From Nitrospira sp. (lineage in GTDB: Bacteria > Nitrospirota > Nitrospiria > Nitrospirales > Nitrospiraceae): a DNA stretch of 64,000 nt. The position numbers and the translations under genes are program-made. Of this stretch, positions 10,425 through 33,250 are shown one piece after another; the first letter of the stretch is position 1, and every line of letters begins with the position of its first letter. The DNA lies in NCBI GenBank assembly GCA_005116835.1, contig SWDM01000013.1:124001-188000 (forward strand). The letters are read 5' to 3'. Below the pieces are notes generated by a model. That model was given only the letters and a program-made list of their open reading frames with translations, was not told the origin of the DNA and did no database searches.

Positions 10425-12440
10425 ATGAGTGACCAGAATAGCTTCTACATCACCACGCCGATCTATTACGTAAACGATGTCCCGCACATTGGCCACGCCT
10501 ACACGACCGTGGCTGCCGATGTGCTGGCTCGCTACTGGCGCCTCCGTGGGCGTGACGTCTTCTTTCTCACCGGGCTCGACGAACATGGGCAAAAGGTTCA
10601 GCAGGCCGCAGCCAAAGCCGGCATCGATCCGCAGGCCCATTGCGACAAGCTGGCGCCACAATTCCAGAGCCTCTGGACGCGGCTGAACATCTCGAACGAC
10701 GCCTTCATCAGAACGACGGATGCTCCCCATAAAGTAGTTGTTCAACGATACCTTGAGCTACTATTCAGTAAAGACATGATCTATAAGGCTGACTACACCG
10801 GATGGTACTGCACATTCGATGAGCGGTTTTGGACGGAAAAGGATGTTGAGAGCGGCCTCTGCCCTGACTGCAAACGGCCGGTCGAACGGATTAGCGAGCA
10901 TAACTATTTCTTCAAGATGGGGCAGTATCAGGCTGACCTGATCGAACACATCAAACGACATTCGAGCTTCATCCGCCCTGAGTCTCGGCGCAATGAAGTC
11001 CTGGGATTCCTGACCACGCAAAAGCTCGGCGACCTCTCGATCTCACGACCAAAATCGCGCCTCTCATGGGGGATCGAACTCCCGTTCGACAAGGACTATG
11101 TCACCTACGTCTGGTTCGACGCGCTGGTCAACTACATGTCAGCCCTCGACTATCTCCGACCGACACCCTCGCAAGCCCAATTCTGGCCGGCTAACGTGCA
11201 TCTCGTCGGCAAGGACATTCTCACGACACATGCGGTCTACTGGTCCACGATGCTGATGGCATTGAATCTGCCTCTACCCAAAACGATCTTTGCCCATGGC
11301 TGGTGGACCGTCGACGGAGAAAAGATGTCGAAGAGCCGCGGTAATGTCGTCGACCCCAACAAGATGGTCGACGAGTTCGGCGCCGACGCCTTCCGGTATT
11401 TTTTATTGCGCGAAGTACCCTTTGGACAGGACGGAGACTTTTCGCAATCTGCGTTGGTCACCAACCTCAATAGCGACTTGGCCAACGGAATCGGAAACCT
11501 CCTCAGCCGCACCCTTACTATGATCGAGCGGTTCGCCGGCGGGACGATTCCCGCGATCGGCACCCCGGCCATTCCAGAGCTTGAAGCCCTGATCGCCACA
11601 ACAGCAACAGGCCTGCCGGAACGAATCGAGCATGGATTCAGCGCCCTCGCTTTTCGAGAGAATCTCCAAGCTCTCTGGGAACTCGTCGGTTTGTGCGACG
11701 AATACATCGACAAGGCTGCGCCCTGGAAGCTTGCTAAAAACCCCGAGAGCCTTCCACGCCTGAACACGGTGCTCAATACTGCGTCGCGAGCGCTCCGCTT
11801 GCTGTCAGTCCTCCTGTATCCCTACATGCCTCAAACAGCGGCACAACTCGCACAACAACTCGGCCTCTCGTTCGACTTTTCAAAGCCGATGCCGCAAACA
11901 GCCTATGGATGGGAGACACCGCTTGCCGGGGTAAAGATCTTCAAAGGCCCAGGCCTCTTTCCACGTATTGAATCAACACCACAAGGAGCCAAGACCGAGA
12001 GTGATGCAACGACTACCCCGCAACCGACGACTGTGACACCAATGCCAACGACCCTACCGCCATGCCCGACCGCCAGCGCTTCGAGCCCTGCGCCACAAGC
12101 CCCTGCACCAGCCCAGATCACCATCGACGAATTCATGAAAATTCAACTCAAGACCGCGAAGGTTCTCAGTGCGGAACGCGTCCCCAAGTCAGAGAAGTTG
12201 CTCAAGTTACAAGTCAGTCTTGGCGAGGGAATGGAGCAGCGGCAGATTGTGGCCGGCATCGGAAAGAAATATGAGCCGGAGGCCTTGATTGGGAAAACCA
12301 TCGTCATCGTGGCCAATTTAAAGCCGGCAAAATTGATGGGGATCGAGTCGCAAGGTATGGTCCTCGCGGCAGGCGACAGTGAAGTCCGGGGCCTCCTTAC
12401 GCTCCTGGAAGACGTTGAGCCGGGCACGAAGGTAAAATGA
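10425..12440 (+). CDS. metG: Methionyl-tRNA synthetase
   Basis: Charges tRNA(Met). The 671 residues contain the HIGH motif as HIGH in VPHIGHAYTT (about 21-24), one zinc knuckle (CTFDERFW...CPDCKRP) and the KMSKS loop (GEKMSKSRGNVV, about 300). The C-terminal 110 residues form an EMAP/Trbp111-type tRNA-binding domain (IDEFMKIQLKTAKV...). A low-complexity Thr/Pro/Ala linker at about 525-560 joins it to the anticodon-binding domain. The last codons overlap the next gene as ATGA. Confidence 0.96.
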   Translation: MSDQNSFYITTPIYYVNDVPHIGHAYTTVAADVLARYWRLRGRDVFFLTGLDEHGQKVQQAAAKAGIDPQAHCDKLAPQFQSLWTRLNISNDAFIRTTDAPHKVVVQRYLELLFSKDMIYKADYTGWYCTFDERFWTEKDVESGLCPDCKRPVERISEHNYFFKMGQYQADLIEHIKRHSSFIRPESRRNEVLGFLTTQKLGDLSISRPKSRLSWGIELPFDKDYVTYVWFDALVNYMSALDYLRPTPSQAQFWPANVHLVGKDILTTHAVYWSTMLMALNLPLPKTIFAHGWWTVDGEKMSKSRGNVVDPNKMVDEFGADAFRYFLLREVPFGQDGDFSQSALVTNLNSDLANGIGNLLSRTLTMIERFAGGTIPAIGTPAIPELEALIATTATGLPERIEHGFSALAFRENLQALWELVGLCDEYIDKAAPWKLAKNPESLPRLNTVLNTASRALRLLSVLLYPYMPQTAAQLAQQLGLSFDFSKPMPQTAYGWETPLAGVKIFKGPGLFPRIESTPQGAKTESDATTTPQPTTVTPMPTTLPPCPTASASSPAPQAPAPAQITIDEFMKIQLKTAKVLSAERVPKSEKLLKLQVSLGEGMEQRQIVAGIGKKYEPEALIGKTIVIVANLKPAKLMGIESQGMVLAAGDSEVRGLLTLLEDVEPGTKVK

Positions 12441-13352: not shown

Positions 13353-13395
13353 CCGGTCTGTCTGGTTATTTGGTCTGTCTTGTCTCTCTGGTTGG
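13353..13395. repeat. Single arm of the GGTTTGTTTGG word family (A1)
   Basis: Words GGTCTGTCTGGTTATTTGG and TCTGTCTTGTCTCTCTGGTTGG occur without an inverted partner, so this is a partial copy of the hairpin family seen complete at 21191-21274 and elsewhere. Confidence 0.5.
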
Positions 13396-14633: not shown

Positions 14634-14649
14634 AAGCGCGTTCCTCGTG

Positions 14650-14735
14650 AAGCGTGAAGCGCTTGAAGCCGGGGCGAAACATGAAGAATCCGACTCCGGA
14701 ACGCAATACGCTTCACGAACGACGCTTCACGGCAG
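14650..14735. repeat. Word-repeat hairpin, GTGAAGCG subtype (copy B2)
   Basis: Left arm CGTGAAGCGTGAAGCGC, right arm GCTTCACGAACGACGCTTCACG, with a loop containing CTCCGGAACGCAATACG. The right half is almost identical to the copy at 34667-34775. It separates the CDF exporter from the GTPase gene. Confidence 0.7.
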
Positions 14736-15818: not shown

Positions 15819-16350
15819 GCGAAGCGCGGACACGCCAGAAGCGCAGGATCAACCACGCGGCCCCGGCTCCGAAGAATCCGCCGATTGCCCATCCTCCCAA
15901 CACGTCCGTGATGTAGTGGGCTCCGATATAGACGCGAGAGAGACCGATCAGTCCGACCAACGGCCAGCTCACCCAGCCTGACCGCGGATACAACACATGG
16001 AAAAAGGCTGCCGCCGTTGCGGTATTAATGGCGTGATTCGACGGAAAACCAAAGGTCTTGCCGCAGGCTTCGATCTGATGGATATCCGGAAGCCCCATGC
16101 AGGGTCGTGGTCGAGCCGCAAGGTCTTTGATCCGTGCCCCGACAAAATCCAACAAACCGATGGAGGCGGCCAGTATCGGGGCTCCCAGCAATGCCTCCCG
16201 CCAGGATACCCACAACCAATAGCTGGTCAGTAGAATCCCGGGCACCCACAGTAGGCCTGAATTGGAGAGCCCAAGCGCCAACCCATCGAGCCAATCAGAC
16301 TGCCCGGCAAGCCCATTGATGGCACGAAGCAGGGATTCATCCACACTCAT
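15796..16350 (-). CDS. PAP2-family membrane phosphatase
   Basis: A 184-residue membrane protein with about five or six helices. It carries the three phosphatase motifs of the PAP2 superfamily: KDLAARPRP (motif 1), FPSNHA (motif 2, with the usual PSGH as PSNH) and SRVYIGAHYITDV (motif 3). Such enzymes dephosphorylate undecaprenyl pyrophosphate, phosphatidylglycerol phosphate or lipid A at the periplasmic face. The substrate cannot be told here. The C-terminal codons run into GTGAAACG words at 15796-15815 (ENVKG). Nothing ties it to the metal genes on either side. Confidence 0.85.
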   Translation of the reverse strand: MSVDESLLRAINGLAGQSDWLDGLALGLSNSGLLWVPGILLTSYWLWVSWREALLGAPILAASIGLLDFVGARIKDLAARPRPCMGLPDIHQIEACGKTFGFPSNHAINTATAAAFFHVLYPRSGWVSWPLVGLIGLSRVYIGAHYITDVLGGWAIGGFFGAGAAWLILRFWRVRASLPENVKG

Positions 16351-16461
16351 GGGGATGACGATAAAGCGTCACCCGTCATTCGTCAACCGTGAACCATGAA
16401 AGAGCGGGAAATAATCCGGCAGGTCTATCAGCTATAAGCCATACGCCATCGGCTCTTGCTT

Positions 16462-16923
16462 TCACCTCGCGCGGAAGTGGATGCGAACAGTCAACTCCCC
16501 GTCGACCGGCTCATCGCCTTTCATTTGGGGCTCGAAGGTCCATTTATTCAACGCTGCCATGCCAGCGATGGTGAGTTCACGGTGTTTGGCTGGTTCCAAC
16601 ACTACCACTGTCACCGCCGCATCCTTGGAGACCAACATGCGCGCTTTCATCCAATCGTCGAGCTCTTTGCCATCTAAGGCTGGTGGAACAGCAGGCCAGG
16701 GTGTGGCTTTGGGAACCGGTCCAAGCTGTTGATCCTTGTTGAGCGGAAGACCATGGACATGGACCTCGGGCAACTCCAACACGTCTTCCAGGTGATCGCT
16801 CTCATGCGTGGCCTCATCACCCGGCACCGCAAATGCGAGTGCAGGCAGGAGCAATACGGCCAGGCCACAACTCAAGACGATATGTTGAATATACCGTGGA
16901 CTTGAAAAATTCAGAAGTTTCAT
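16462..16923 (-). CDS. TonB C-terminal domain protein
   Basis: A 153-residue protein with a hydrophobic N-terminal segment (about 15-32) ending in ALAFA, which looks like a signal peptidase site rather than the uncleaved anchor of a classical TonB. The mature part is short and lacks the long Pro-rich spacer. Its C-terminal 80 residues (AAVTVVVLEPAKHRELTIAG, then ALNKWTFEPQ and LTVRIHF) match the TonB_C fold. It lies downstream of the receptor gene on the same strand and could work with it. No exbB or exbD is nearby, so energy coupling is uncertain. Confidence 0.7.
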   Translation of the reverse strand: MKLLNFSSPRYIQHIVLSCGLAVLLLPALAFAVPGDEATHESDHLEDVLELPEVHVHGLPLNKDQQLGPVPKATPWPAVPPALDGKELDDWMKARMLVSKDAAVTVVVLEPAKHRELTIAGMAALNKWTFEPQMKGDEPVDGELTVRIHFRAR

Positions 16924-20132: not shown

Positions 20133-21191
20133 ATGCAGAGACCACTCGATAACCAACATATCATTGAGATCAAGCCGCTCCCCTCTCCGCGAACGATCAA
20201 GTCAAAACTGCCGATTACCGATCAAGCAGCAGCGCTGGTCGTTGAAACCAGGGATGCCGTTCGCCACATTCTACACGGCCAAGACCGTGACCGCTTACTG
20301 GTGATCGTCGGCCCCTGCTCCATTCATGACCCCGAAGCTGCCTACGAGTATGCCGACCGATTGAAACCAGTGGCGGATGCGTTGCGCGACCAGTTGCTTA
20401 TCGTCATGCGCACCTACTTTGAAAAGCCCCGCACCACAGTCGGATGGAAAGGACTGATCAACGATCCGCACCTGGACGGCACCTGCGATATCGCCACCGG
20501 CATGGAACTCGCGCGAACGATTCTTCTCAACATCAACAAACGCGGGGTTCCCTGCGCGGCAGAAGCCTTGGATCCGGTCTCCCCCCAATACATCGCCGAT
20601 CTCTGGAGTTGGGTCGCCATCGGCGCCCGCACCACCGAAAGCCAGCCGCACAGAGAAATGGCCAGCGGGCTCTCCATGCCGGTCGGGTTCAAGAACGGAA
20701 CAGAGGGTAATCTTCAGGTCGCCTGGAACGCTATGGTTGCGGCTAAACAAACTCATCATTTCCTCGGAGTCAATGCCGACGGGCTTACCTCTATCATCAA
20801 GACCATGGGCAACCCCGATCGCCATATCGTCCTGCGGGGGGGCGGCGGAAAAACCAACTATGAGGCTGAGCATGTGGCCCGCGCGGAAGCCCTTGTCGCG
20901 AGCGAAGGCATCGTTCGTCCTATCATGATCGACTGTTCACATGACAACTCCAGTAAAGATCACCGACGCCAGAGTGTGGTCGCCCGTGAAGTCATCCGCC
21001 AATTCCGCGAAGGCCGCCACTCCATCATGGGGCTGATGCTCGAAAGCAACCTCAACCCCGGCAAGCAGACCTGGGAGCAGGGGAAAACGCTGGCCCACGG
21101 TGTCTCCATCACCGATGCCTGTCTCGGGTGGGGTGAAACAGAGGCCCTGCTCGGCGAACTGGCCGGCATGATCGTCACGAAACCCATCTAA
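20133..21191 (+). CDS. aroG: 3-deoxy-7-phosphoheptulonate (DAHP) synthase, class I
   Basis: First enzyme of the shikimate pathway; it condenses phosphoenolpyruvate and erythrose-4-phosphate. The 352 residues match the AroFGH type: IVGPCSIHDP (about 58-67), MRTYFEKPRTTVGWKG, LINDPHLDG, VGFKNGT, GGGKTNY and CSHDNSSKDH. An AAAGG-type site lies about 8 bases before the ATG. Its feedback class (Phe, Tyr or Trp) cannot be decided from sequence. It stands alone and is followed at once by a hairpin repeat. Confidence 0.95.
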   Translation: MQRPLDNQHIIEIKPLPSPRTIKSKLPITDQAAALVVETRDAVRHILHGQDRDRLLVIVGPCSIHDPEAAYEYADRLKPVADALRDQLLIVMRTYFEKPRTTVGWKGLINDPHLDGTCDIATGMELARTILLNINKRGVPCAAEALDPVSPQYIADLWSWVAIGARTTESQPHREMASGLSMPVGFKNGTEGNLQVAWNAMVAAKQTHHFLGVNADGLTSIIKTMGNPDRHIVLRGGGGKTNYEAEHVARAEALVASEGIVRPIMIDCSHDNSSKDHRRQSVVAREVIRQFREGRHSIMGLMLESNLNPGKQTWEQGKTLAHGVSITDACLGWGETEALLGELAGMIVTKPI

Positions 21192-21274
21192 CTGGTTGTT
21201 TGGTTCATTTGGTTTGTTTGGTTTATTTGGTTCGTTTCGTTCAACCAAATAAACCAAACAGACCAAACAAACCA
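21191..21274 (+). repeat. Word-repeat hairpin, GGTTTGTTTGG family (A2)
   Basis: Left arm repeats GGTTTGTTTGGTTTATTTGG, right arm is its inverse (CCAAATAAACCAAACAGACC), with loop TTCGTTTCGTTCAAC. The loop TTYCGTTCRAC recurs in A4, A5 and A7. The repeat begins at the aroG stop and ends beside the tatD start, so it may terminate aroG transcription. Confidence 0.8.
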
Positions 21275-21276
21275 GT

Positions 21277-22591: not shown

Positions 22592-22679
22592 CCCGGTCTA
22601 TCTGGTTGATGGTTCATCTGGTCTATCTGGTTTGTTTTGTTCTGAGCTCAAAGAAAACCAAATAAACCAGACAAACCTA
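22592..22679. repeat. Word-repeat hairpin (A3)
   Basis: GGTCTATCTGGTTGATGGTT and GGTTTGTTTTGTTC words face AAAACCAAATAAACCAGAC. The loop (TGAGCTCAAAG) differs from the usual TTYCGTTCRAC. It sits directly upstream of the YacP/NYN gene start. Confidence 0.7.
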
Positions 22680-22759
22680 TTTATCAAGCTTTCTTCGGAC
22701 CCTACTGGCTCACACCGCTATCTGTCAATCGGCGCACGACAAGCGAGCGGAACGGGTTA

Positions 22760-22833
22760 CTCTGGTTTGTTTGGTTCAGTTGGTTCATCTGGTTAGTTTC
22801 GTTCGACCAAATAAACAAAACAAACCAGAGCAA
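22760..22833 (+). repeat. Word-repeat hairpin (A4)
   Basis: Left arm TCTGGTTTGTTTGGTTCAG, right arm CCAAATAAACAAAACAAACC, with conserved loop AGTTTCGTTCGAC. Same orientation as A2. Confidence 0.75.
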
Positions 22834-22893
22834 CTACGGCAACCAGTATGGCCATTCCACTTGACAACGGCGCATACATCTGAGAAAAACCTC

Positions 22894-23080
22894 TAGGAGT
22901 CTGTCCGAGTAATCCTTCGTTGCGAGGCAAAGGAGCTGTTGGTAGATGCGAGGCCGCAGGCTCGAAAAAACCGGAGGCGTATTCGCTGGAATACGTTGAG
23001 GATTTTTTCGGGCCGAGAACGACGCAGATACCTCCAGATCGTTTGCCGCAGTAGAATGGCATTACTCGTACAGACTCCTA
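22894..23080. mobile_element. Nested-palindrome MITE-like element E3
   Basis: Begins TAGGAGTCTGT and ends ACAGACTCCTA. Inside, CTCGAAAAAACCGGAGGCG and GTATTCGCTGGAATACG, followed by TTGAGGATTTTTTCGGG, form a strong hairpin, preceded by GCGAGGCCGCAGG. It shares its final TA with the first TA of E4. No coding capacity. Confidence 0.75.
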
Positions 23081-23293
23081 GCCCGCATTATTCATGACGG
23101 TTCGTCGTGAAATCGCGCAGTCGCCATGCGAGACAGGCGCGTGGAGCCGCGAGGGAGGGAGGCATACTTCAAACAGTATGTTGACCGACCGAACGGCGAG
23201 CCCGCCTGCCTGGACGCCGGGCCACCGCGTCTAGGCTTGTCGTAGCGGCGAATCCGCGATTGCAGCAGAAGCGTTCATGAATAATGCGGGCTA
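23079..23293. mobile_element. Nested-palindrome MITE-like element E4
   Basis: Perfect terminal repeat TAGCCCGCATTATTCATGA / TCATGAATAATGCGGGCTA, with central GGCATACTTCAAACAGTATG and a GGAGCCGCGAGG core related to E1-E3. It is bounded by TA at both ends, as expected for insertion at TA. A solo left end occurs at 15711. Confidence 0.78.
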
Positions 23294-23319
23294 GATCCCT
23301 TCACAGGCAGTGAACACCC

Positions 23320-25385: not shown

Positions 25386-25450
25386 GTTTATTTGGTTTGT
25401 TTGGTTGAACGGAATGAACCAGATGAACCAAGTAAGCCAGACAAACCAGA
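25386..25450 (-). repeat. Word-repeat hairpin (A5)
   Basis: Arms GTTTATTTGGTTTGTTTGG and CCAGACAAACC around a loop that, on the minus strand, reads CATTCCGTTCAACC, matching the conserved loop. It follows the truA stop. Confidence 0.7.
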
Positions 25451-25526
25451 TCAATCTGCTTCGCCGGCCGCGCTGCCGCAATACCGCCCACAGAAAATTA
25501 ATAATGGAAGTATTCCTAATTTAGTA

Positions 25527-25920: not shown

Positions 25921-25926
25921 CAACAT

Positions 25927-25956
25927 CGCCCCGCGGCCCATTCGGGCCGCGGGGCG
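25927..25956 (+). terminator. Strong GC hairpin terminator after the PsiF gene
   Basis: CGCCCCGCGGCCC pairs with GGGCCGCGGGGCG around ATTC, a perfect 13-base stem 6 bases after the stop codon. The run of T that normally follows is weak (TATTCTC). Confidence 0.7.
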
Positions 25957-25991
25957 TATTCTCACACCTCACACCAACCAAGCCGGTTCCT

Positions 25992-26094
25992 CTTGTTCAT
26001 TTGGTCTATTGGTTTGTTTTGTTCATTTGGTTGAATCGGACTAATCGGAGAAACCAGATCAACCAAATGAACAAAACAAACCAAACAAACCAGT
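25992..26094. repeat. Word-repeat hairpin (A6)
   Basis: Left arm TTGGTTTGTTTTGTTCATTTGG, right arm CCAAATGAACAAAACAAACC, with a loop diverged to GAATCGGACTAATCGGAG. It lies between convergent PsiF and cysE and could terminate both. Confidence 0.75.
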
Positions 26095-27784: not shown

Positions 27785-27875
27785 GTTATTCGTTAAACGT
27801 CAATCGTTAACCGTGGAAGAAGCCTAATCCTGTGAGACATATCGCATTTCGCGATTAACGTTGAACAATTCACGT
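27785..27875. repeat. Word-repeat hairpin, GTTAAACGT subtype (B4)
   Basis: CGTTAAACGTCAATCGTTAACCG faces CGATTAACGTTGAACAATTCACG and TTTAACG, around a short loop. It fills the ispD-ispF gap. Confidence 0.6.
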
Positions 27876-28568
27876 TTAACGCCCCTTCCGCGAAGCCAAG
27901 ATCGCTTCGCCGATCACCATGTCTTCAGGCCTCGTTACCTTGATATTCTCCCCGCTTCCCTCCACCACCGTGACTGAATATCCCAGCCACTCGACCAGAA
28001 AGGCGTCATCGGTAGCTCGAATCCCTTCGGCATGCGCTTTCTCGTGGGCCATCTCAATCCAGTCCCGTCGAAAGGCCTGCGGAGTTTGAGCCAGCCACAA
28101 GGGAGCGCGATCGACGGTTCGCTCGATTGTTCCATCGGTCCGTACCTGCTTCACAGTGTCCCGCATCGGAAGCGCGATAATTGCCGCGCCCTCTTTTCTC
28201 GCCGCAGCCACAACCTCGGCAATCATCCCGATAGTCATAAATGGACGGACTGCGTCATGGATGATGACGATCTCTGTGTCTGAGGGAACCTGCGCAAGCG
28301 CGTGCCTCACTGAGTCCTGGCGCTCGGCGCCGCCCGCCACGACCTTTGTAACCTTGGTGAAACGATGCCGCGAGACGATCTCCTTCTCGCAATAGTCGAT
28401 ATCGGCAGACGGAACGGCAAGAATAATCTGGTCGACTACGGAAGCGGCTTGCAAGGTTCGCAACGACTGAACGATCAGCGGCTCACCGCCCAACGATAGA
28501 AATTGCTTGGGAACGGAGCCGCCCATCCGAAGCCCGCGGCCGGCTGCAGGCACGAGCGCCACCACCAA
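27876..28568 (-). CDS. ispD: 2-C-methyl-D-erythritol 4-phosphate cytidylyltransferase
   Basis: Third step of the MEP pathway, forming CDP-ME. The 230 residues begin VALVPAAGRGLRMGGSVPKQ, the CTP-binding signature. HDAVRPF and RATDDAFLVEW are the later conserved motifs, and the length is typical. It starts just inside a word-repeat hairpin (28582-28658) that separates it from the HtrA gene. Confidence 0.95.
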   Translation of the reverse strand: MVVALVPAAGRGLRMGGSVPKQFLSLGGEPLIVQSLRTLQAASVVDQIILAVPSADIDYCEKEIVSRHRFTKVTKVVAGGAERQDSVRHALAQVPSDTEIVIIHDAVRPFMTIGMIAEVVAAARKEGAAIIALPMRDTVKQVRTDGTIERTVDRAPLWLAQTPQAFRRDWIEMAHEKAHAEGIRATDDAFLVEWLGYSVTVVEGSGENIKVTRPEDMVIGEAILASRKGR

Positions 28569-28581
28569 AGGAGCCTCCTCA

Positions 28582-28658
28582 CTTGTTTATTTGGTTTGTT
28601 TAGTTTGTTTAGTTGAACGAAACTAACCAGATGAACCAAATCAACCAAACAAACCAGC
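28582..28658 (-). repeat. Word-repeat hairpin (A7)
   Basis: TTGTTTATTTGGTTTGTTTAG on the left; CCAAATCAACCAAACAAACC on the right. On the minus strand the loop reads AGTTTCGTTCAAC, the conserved form. Confidence 0.75.
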
Positions 28659-31204: not shown

Positions 31205-31303
31205 TGAACGTTAAACGTGAGACGTGAAAAGTGAAAAGTGAAATGTCAAAAACCTGACCGTGCTCCCCTTCATTTCACGTTTTACCTTTCACGTTTCACG
31301 ACG
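31205..31303. repeat. Word-repeat hairpin, GTGAAACGT family (B5)
   Basis: Left arm GTTAAACGTGAGACGTGAAAAG with GTGAAAAGTGAAATG; right arm CATTTCACGTTTTACC and CTTTCACGTTTCACG. The loop (GTGCTCCCCTTC) resembles that of B1 read in reverse complement. Confidence 0.75.
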
Positions 31304-32367: not shown

Positions 32368-33174
32368 TTACCGGGCCGGTGCCTCAGCCGGCAATCCGCT
32401 GACGAGATCGGCCACAATCGACCCGATGATGACCTTGGCCTTCATGCGAACCGGAATACGCCGATCGTCGTTCGTAAACCAGACCCGGATGTTGCCTTGG
32501 TTGAGGAAGAGCCCTTGGAACGGCATGACGACCAACACACGAGCCGTTTCAACCTCCCCCCACGGACCGCTGACCGTTTCGATCTCCTCCACATGTACTT
32601 CGAGCTTGCGATTCTTTTTATCATGATAGACGTTCATCGTCATGGTTGCGCCTGGCTGTAGCGGCAACATGCTGCGAGCAAAATAGAGGCAGGAGATGAC
32701 ATCCTGGGTGCCAGGCGGGATCTCCGATGTTTCAGTCACCCCATCTTTGACAGCCGTGACCGTCCCCTCTTTATGATGGAACCTGTACTCGATATCTTCC
32801 TTCTTCTTCCCTTCACGCCGCTTGAAAGTCAGATGCTCCGGAAGCAGCGTAGCAGGATCTACGATCGACTCAACCCAGTTATCCACGGGGAAAAACTTGG
32901 TGATGGCAGGCCTCGACTGGGCCGTGGTAATCAATTTTGCCAGCGGCCGCTCTCCATCCATGCCGGCACCGTTGATCGTCATCACAGCTGTGCCGGCTGT
33001 GATATAGAGCCAGGAAATGTCGTAGGTAAGTTGTTCGCCGACTTGGAAGGATCGGGTTGAGGGTGGATTATCCCCGGGCTCCGCCCATGAGACCGAGCCA
33101 TTCACTGCACCCAAGATCAGGCAGGCCAGAACGAGCCAGGCACGGAACTGGTTTGTTTTGTTTATTTGGTTCAT
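32368..33174 (-). CDS. DUF3108 periplasmic/outer-membrane beta-barrel-like protein
   Basis: A 268-residue protein with a signal peptide (hydrophobic 11-31, likely cut after SWA). It matches DUF3108: FQVGEQLTYDISWLYITAG, DNWVESIVDP and FLNQGNIRVWFTNDDRRIPVRM are typical. The function of the family is unknown. The first ten codons (MNQINKTNQF) are supplied by the word-repeat at 33148-33174, so its start codon lies inside a repeat. This makes the true start uncertain; no other in-frame ATG lies before the hydrophobic segment. Confidence 0.82.
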   Translation of the reverse strand: MNQINKTNQFRAWLVLACLILGAVNGSVSWAEPGDNPPSTRSFQVGEQLTYDISWLYITAGTAVMTINGAGMDGERPLAKLITTAQSRPAITKFFPVDNWVESIVDPATLLPEHLTFKRREGKKKEDIEYRFHHKEGTVTAVKDGVTETSEIPPGTQDVISCLYFARSMLPLQPGATMTMNVYHDKKNRKLEVHVEEIETVSGPWGEVETARVLVVMPFQGLFLNQGNIRVWFTNDDRRIPVRMKAKVIIGSIVADLVSGLPAEAPAR

Positions 33175-33250
33175 TTGGTTTGTTTGGTTTAACTAAATAA
33201 ACAAGAAAAACCAAATAAACGAGACAGACCGAACAGACCAAATGAGCCAG
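33148..33250. repeat. Word-repeat hairpin (A8)
   Basis: CTGGTTTGTTTTGTTTATTTGG and TTTGGTTTGTTTGG face AAACCAAATAAACGAGAC and CCAAATGAGCC. It overlaps the start of the DUF3108 gene and reaches within a few bases of the next upstream gene's stop. Confidence 0.75.

Follow-up and report, generated by a model that had tools for sequence, protein, structure and literature searches.

REP sequences of the GTAG and CGTC superfamilies are high-copy intergenic palindromes dispersed mainly in tandem and convergent gaps, where they lie near stop codons and form stable RNA hairpins with G.U pairs on one strand (PMC3733652, PMC12306157). REPs of E. coli reduce translation when they lie no more than 15 nt from a stop codon (PMC12306157). 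MITEs and REPINs (PMC3116915), together with RU-type repeats (PMC2759123), are non-coding intergenic hairpin units that spread as whole units without a transposase of their own, and the TAACTGA repeats of Beggiatoaceae (PMC4679880) are intergenic, in-register arrays of a short unit confined to one lineage. The Nitrospira palindromes analyzed here resemble each of these systems in the respects named, and they are, as REPs are, extragenic palindromes in many dispersed copies. They constitute a large dispersed repeat family built from 9-nt units and about 65-125 bp long. No specific description of such palindromes was found in the literature on Nitrospira; the family is sizeable and, as far as the papers found show, undescribed.

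Hairpin copies in the window and across the genome

The window, meaning the whole 64,000-nt stretch that was analyzed (positions 124001-188000 of its contig, from a genome of 3.94 Mb), was searched with the word TGGTTYRTTTGGTT, allowing up to two mismatches. The search returned 46 matches against 1.55 expected, and no shuffled sequence reached 46. The original prediction had placed seven hairpins and one single arm in this region. Direct reading of all eight places confirmed the layout, with inverted repeats at seven of them and a GC-richer arm (GGTCTGTCTGGTTATTTGGTCTGTCTTGTC...) without a partner arm at the eighth (13353; 13355-13395, plus strand). Compared with dinucleotide shuffles, the seven hairpins gave fold z scores of -3.6 to -8.5, whereas the single arm showed no significant fold (z -1.5). 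The arms consist of in-register 9-nt units, NGTYYRTYT on one side and the reverse complement on the opposite side.

Copy A1 (21192-21276, plus strand; z -7.0 and -8.5) is a complete hairpin with the core loop TTTCGTTC on the plus strand, and it occupies the whole gap between the stop codon of the DAHP synthase gene (21189-21191) and the ATG of tatD (21277). A2 (22594-22681, no strand assigned; z -4.1) has a centre of its own, GTTCTGAGCTCAAAG, and lies 18 nt from the start of an NYN-domain gene; A3 (22758-22836, plus strand; z -5.5), with the loop TTTCGTTCGAC, is located in the divergent gap between the NYN and amidase genes. Directly 3' of the truA stop codon lies A4 (25386-25451, minus strand; z -6.6), which reads TTCCGTTCAAC in its loop on the minus strand. 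A5 (25985-26093, minus strand; z -6.8) is a long hairpin with perfect inner arms of 26 bp, an additional outer run of units and a degenerate centre. The gap between the degP-like protease gene and ispD holds A6 (28583-28657, minus strand; z -3.6), with the loop TTTCGTTCAAC on the minus strand. A7 (33148-33250, plus strand; z -8.5), a long hairpin whose centre lacks the shared loop, has the stop codon of a PGM/PMM gene (33254) on one side and a DUF3108 gene on the other. The loop TTYCGTTCRAC was present in the four copies for which it had been predicted, on the plus strand at 21191 and 22760 and on the minus strand at 25386 and 28582; the centres at 22592, 25992, and 33148 were different or partly different.

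Genome-wide, a pattern of the loop and its flanks gave 81 matches, compared with 0 and 1 for the reversed control. The information profile of 86 oriented copies stayed high between roughly -44 and +47 relative to the loop, with background levels beyond, and the oriented consensus of approximately 90 nt reads GGTTTGTTT TGTTTATTT GGTTGATTT GGTTCATCT GGTTAGTTT CGTTC AACCAAAYAAACNARACAAACCAAAYAAC. Element length had a median of 95 nt, with a 10-90% range of 68-125 nt. A sequence-only model built from 34 copies matched the same genome at least 165 times (both strands counted, 150 candidates scored). A search of Rfam gave no family at the gathering score, microRNA-type hairpins alone being matched, far below the threshold, and BLAST against plasmids and phages with the low-complexity filter on gave no match to the element.

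Hairpins with arms of other short words (GCGTGAAGC, CGTGAAACG, GTTCGA, GGCTGAAGG, CGCGAGAC, and GGTTGAGG) were also observed at 14638-14725, 27791-27881, and 31220-31294 of the window, at about 11390-11460 of locus L104, and in the degP-ispD gap of L110 and L121; the family that occupies a given junction differs between species. Between A3 and the amidase gene (22897-23300), the inverted pairs GAGTCTGTMCGAGTAAT and AGCCCGCATTATTCATGA...TCATGAATAATGCGGGCT look like nested MITE-type inserts and are absent from most relatives. An unrelated insert with the terminal repeats AGGGAAGGTCTGATTAAT splits a hairpin copy in the degP-ispD gap of L109 (about 16270-16515).

Position of the copies relative to stop codons

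Gene edges are approximate, since the calls came from a simple scorer of hexamers that had been trained on the window. The original prediction that every copy is intergenic or at a gene edge held for all seven hairpins in the window, and only 2 of the 86 copies in the genome lay inside predicted genes, although the window is about 85% coding; the copies are accordingly not found equally inside genes. The remaining contexts were tandem gaps (53), convergent gaps (16), divergent gaps (9), and locus edges (6).

In tandem gaps, the copy was closer to the upstream stop codon than to the downstream start in 44 of 53 cases, and the same was true of 25 of 32 copies in three further members of the genus. 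Copies lay a median of 9 nt from a stop codon both in the genome of the window and in the relatives, compared with about 70 nt under uniform placement, and none of 5000 random placements came as close. Copies within 15 nt of a stop codon numbered 45 of 68 in this genome (23 expected under uniform placement) and 23 of 35 in the relatives (12 expected). This closeness to stop codons is the strongest new fact about the family. Some copies furnish the stop codon themselves, with GGTTGA or CTAG at the boundary. Beside the copies, CTAG stops were somewhat enriched (16/94 versus 27/288) and TGA stops were depleted (18/94 versus 98/288). Copies in divergent gaps, which have no stop codon nearby, made up 16 of the 121 with a clear context (9 in this genome and 7 in relatives).

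Orientation relative to the genes was inconsistent, with 33 of 42 tandem copies of this genome pointing one way but ratios of 36:17 when the set was widened and 18:14 among the relatives. A gene-relative orientation bias was not relied on because it weakened in the wider set and in the relatives.

Orthologous copies, taxonomic range, and spread

The A1 site (aroF-tatD) was surveyed at 80 tatD loci of named Nitrospira genomes. CG24C (L104) has a copy there in the same orientation, five species (L105, L106, L109, L110, and L121) have one with a flipped core, the site is empty in three (L107, L111, and L112), and others hold a different repeat. For copies of the genome under study, G026 (which is CG24C), G023, and G019 carry partners at the corresponding gene ends. 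Over 16 orthologue pairs, the elements were 0.87 identical, compared with 0.80 for the non-coding flanks and 0.81 for coding sequence, and unrelated (paralogous) copies aligned in the same way were 0.81 identical. The average excess over the flanks is small, and constraint on single copies therefore appears weak overall. Two copies stand out as conserved where fourfold-site identity is 0.60-0.63: A2 is identical to its L105 orthologue at 88 of 88 bases, and A6 is identical to its L104 orthologue over the aligned element except for an 18-nt (two-unit) deletion in one arm. The L104 orthologue of A5 has diverged. At the A6 junction, relatives in the opposite orientation occur in L116, L120, L123, L124, and L151, where this older relative overlaps the start of ispD.

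Indels of 9 and 18 nt, that is, of whole units, separate orthologous copies, in keeping with the original view of the arms as slippage-prone simple sequence; that view does not extend to the units adjoining the loop, which carry identities of their own (GGTTAGTTT at -1 and GGTTCATCT at -2). The clearest in-place inversion was found between L232 and L066, which are 98% identical when inverted (89 bases) versus 81% in direct alignment (125 bases); a second flip, between L261 and L083, was weaker. Orthologous copies were thus shown to be inherited at the same gene ends over long times, to lose and gain whole units, and to flip in place.

With the sequence model, every one of the 31 further genomes of the genus yielded copies, as did at least 14 of the 29 remaining genomes of the family; no copy was among the matches listed for the 39 genomes that represent other families of the order. 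In six genomes from other genera (G035, G043, G045, G046, G033, and G036) and in one genome of the same genus (G012), the 9-nt NGTYYRTYT grammar was kept and the centres varied from copy to copy. Because these genomes have the same arms and different loops, the fixed loop is, judged from the genomes compared, a mark of the subclade to which the window belongs and not of the whole family. The original reading of the loop as an element kept by constraint gave way to that of a subfamily mark.

The consensus occurs at dozens of unlinked loci in a single orientation-defined form, and unlinked copies with a long oriented consensus point to dispersal as whole units. A second repeat, TAGCAGGATGCTGAAAAAGNCCGCCAGC...AAGAAGACCGTT, with TAGCAGGATGCTGAAAAAGNCCGCCAGC as one end, gave 94 matches genome-wide compared with 0 for the reversed control. 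Its inner end meets the element in the junction AAGAAGACCGTT|ATTTGG, which was seen again and again, at about 24 of 129 copies. This junction is out of register with the 9-nt unit, and its recurrence indicates that the copies spread as composite wholes. The proposal that the units spread as whole elements was therefore upheld by the unlinked copies, the oriented consensus, and the recurrent junction. The compared empty and filled pairs were too distant to show a target duplication, and no clean empty site with one was found; we therefore infer the insertion itself. The second repeat often starts at the TAG stop codon itself; its palindromic inserts are about 150 bp long, and it flanks copies at, for example, L099 and L095, with related loci at L108, L113, L129, and L136.

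The genome has three Y1_Tnp genes (L101-L103; on contigs C23, C5, and C4), and neither the unit words nor the loop flank any of the three. A link between the element and a RAYT was rejected on this ground. Repeats of the GGGGACAGGCTACTTT type lie on both sides of the Y1_Tnp gene in L102, and this gene and its repeats are probably the true RAYT/REP pair of the genome.

Competing explanations and comparison with known systems

We consider the copies to belong, with a probability of roughly 0.5, to a REP-like palindromic repeat that is dispersed in the Nitrospira family, is unusual in build, and has a hairpin acting after the stop codon. Runs of 9-nt units facing each other across a short centre spread as a whole, sometimes joined to the second repeat, by a copying machinery that is not visibly the Y1/RAYT transposases of the genome. 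The inverted repeat would extrude as a hairpin, or be crossed by replication template switching, so that its centre inverts in place; in-place inversion of the centre is the footprint expected from either process. When the upstream gene is transcribed, the mRNA would carry a hairpin right behind the stop codon, which may, like E. coli REPs at such a distance, lower translation of that gene through what is probably a stall of the last ribosomes, and could possibly also shield the mRNA end. A tmRNA gene is present in the genome, indicating that ribosome rescue is available. Weighing against this reading are the lack of covariation between the arms described below, the modest excess of orthologue identity over the flanks, the copies in divergent gaps, and the failure to find a clean empty site.

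The main rival, nearly as likely, is that the copies are neutral or selfish debris tolerated at gene ends: copied in trans, located at stop codons through insertion preference or purging elsewhere, and without a function for the host. The arms speak for it. Four tests revealed no compensatory stem changes of the kind expected of a structured RNA under pairing selection. Watson-Crick pairs between arms numbered 1838, compared with 1841 with shuffled partners, and allowing G.U pairs gave no excess on either strand; pair counting gave 74.6% versus 74.3% paired and a covariation score of 0.145 versus 0.140 for native and shuffled partners. Mean folding energy was -29.3 for native copies, -30.4 for arm-swapped copies, and -14.7 for shuffled bases. 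Arms of one copy pair no better than arms of different copies, indicating that they drift independently around a shared grammar, and swapping arms between copies does not impair folding, so that selection on pairing is not visible. The identity of orthologous elements, close to that of flanks and paralogues, and the occupation of one junction by different repeat families in different species also favor debris, and the CTAG enrichment and TGA depletion are compatible with a TA-containing target. Against it, copies are kept at the same gene ends although fourfold sites are only 0.55-0.63 identical, and the conservation of A2 and A6 exceeds the prediction of neutral drift.

Near the loop, C.A mismatches of the consensus correspond to G.U pairs on the opposite strand, and the inner 12 pairs are 91% paired on one strand compared with 75% on the other. 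This asymmetry could mark one functional strand, but it is weakened as a functional mark since copies flip in place. Concentric nesting of copies within other palindromes was seen in few cases and was not significant overall.

A broader and rather doubtful idea is that unrelated word-armed palindrome families (GGTTYRTTT, GTTCGA, GGCTGAAGG, CGTGAAA, and others) might be interchangeable post-stop hairpins forming a genome-wide layer of translation attenuation, with arms selected for unit grammar only, evolving by unit slippage and in-place flips, and made by an undescribed mechanism.

Intrinsic, possibly bidirectional, transcription terminators, a function raised in the original prediction, are an unlikely identity for the copies. 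They would account for the presence of stable hairpins 3' of genes, frequently in convergent or tandem gaps, but the elements have no U-tract on either side and thus are not canonical intrinsic terminators: the 8 nt after the element contain 1.8-1.9 T on average, compared with 2.0 in the intergenic background, and five or more T occur in 0-2% of copies versus 8.6%. The stem is moreover AT-rich, copies exist in divergent gaps, and a separate GC-rich hairpin (25925-25960) that precedes A5 looks like the actual terminator there. It is in our view very improbable that a DNA- or RNA-binding protein uses the 9-nt units as facing runs of binding sites, with the palindrome as a by-product; different genera share the unit grammar but not the loop, and the arms match by grammar and not copy by copy, as such arrays would, but no protein candidate was found and the strong thermodynamic folding suggests that the inverted arrangement matters. 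Complementarity kept by local mutation alone (template-switch correction of quasi-palindromes plus slippage, with no mobile element) can practically be dismissed. Mutation associated with hairpins does occur, as the unit indels and in-place flips show, but this explanation predicts a closer match and a better fold between the two arms of a copy than between swapped arms, which was not observed, and a single consensus at unlinked loci requires copying.

Our preferred reading, a REP-like repeat acting after the stop codon, has to be set beside the described systems. MITEs, REPINs, and RU-type repeats differ from the Nitrospira element, which is an inverted repeat over its whole length, in that the latter has no demonstrated target duplication or sharp terminal inverted repeat and varies in the number of its arm units. 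The TAACTGA repeats of Beggiatoaceae are direct repeats, whereas the Nitrospira arrays face each other as a palindrome. Minute loop inversions of hairpins are known from chloroplast DNA, where related genomes differ by an in-place flip of the central part of an inverted repeat; the Nitrospira flips differ in that they occur in members of a bacterial repeat family, and the orthologous copies provide a natural record of bacterial hairpin flips and unit slippage.

The comparison with REPs is the closest. The Nitrospira element is two to three times longer, has arms made of tandem 9-nt units, is not linked to the Y1/RAYT genes of its genome, and has loops that vary between genera; with a median of 95 nt, it is not a 20-40 bp unit with a GTAG or CGTC end, and neither end was seen in its edge profile or boundary list. 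Two-thirds of the Nitrospira copies lie within 15 nt of a stop codon, compared with about 11% of predicted E. coli REPs (PMC12306157), the two values being measured differently. The element is thus REP-like in place and shape, yet it falls outside the REP definitions applied here, both that of size and end tag and that of a RAYT link. Nitrospira is a genus of environmental importance that is mostly uncultured, and these results define in it a large palindromic repeat family that is unusual in build and tightly linked to stop codons. If its position at stop codons reflects function, REP-like control of translation would operate at many Nitrospira genes without the GTAG signature or a RAYT.
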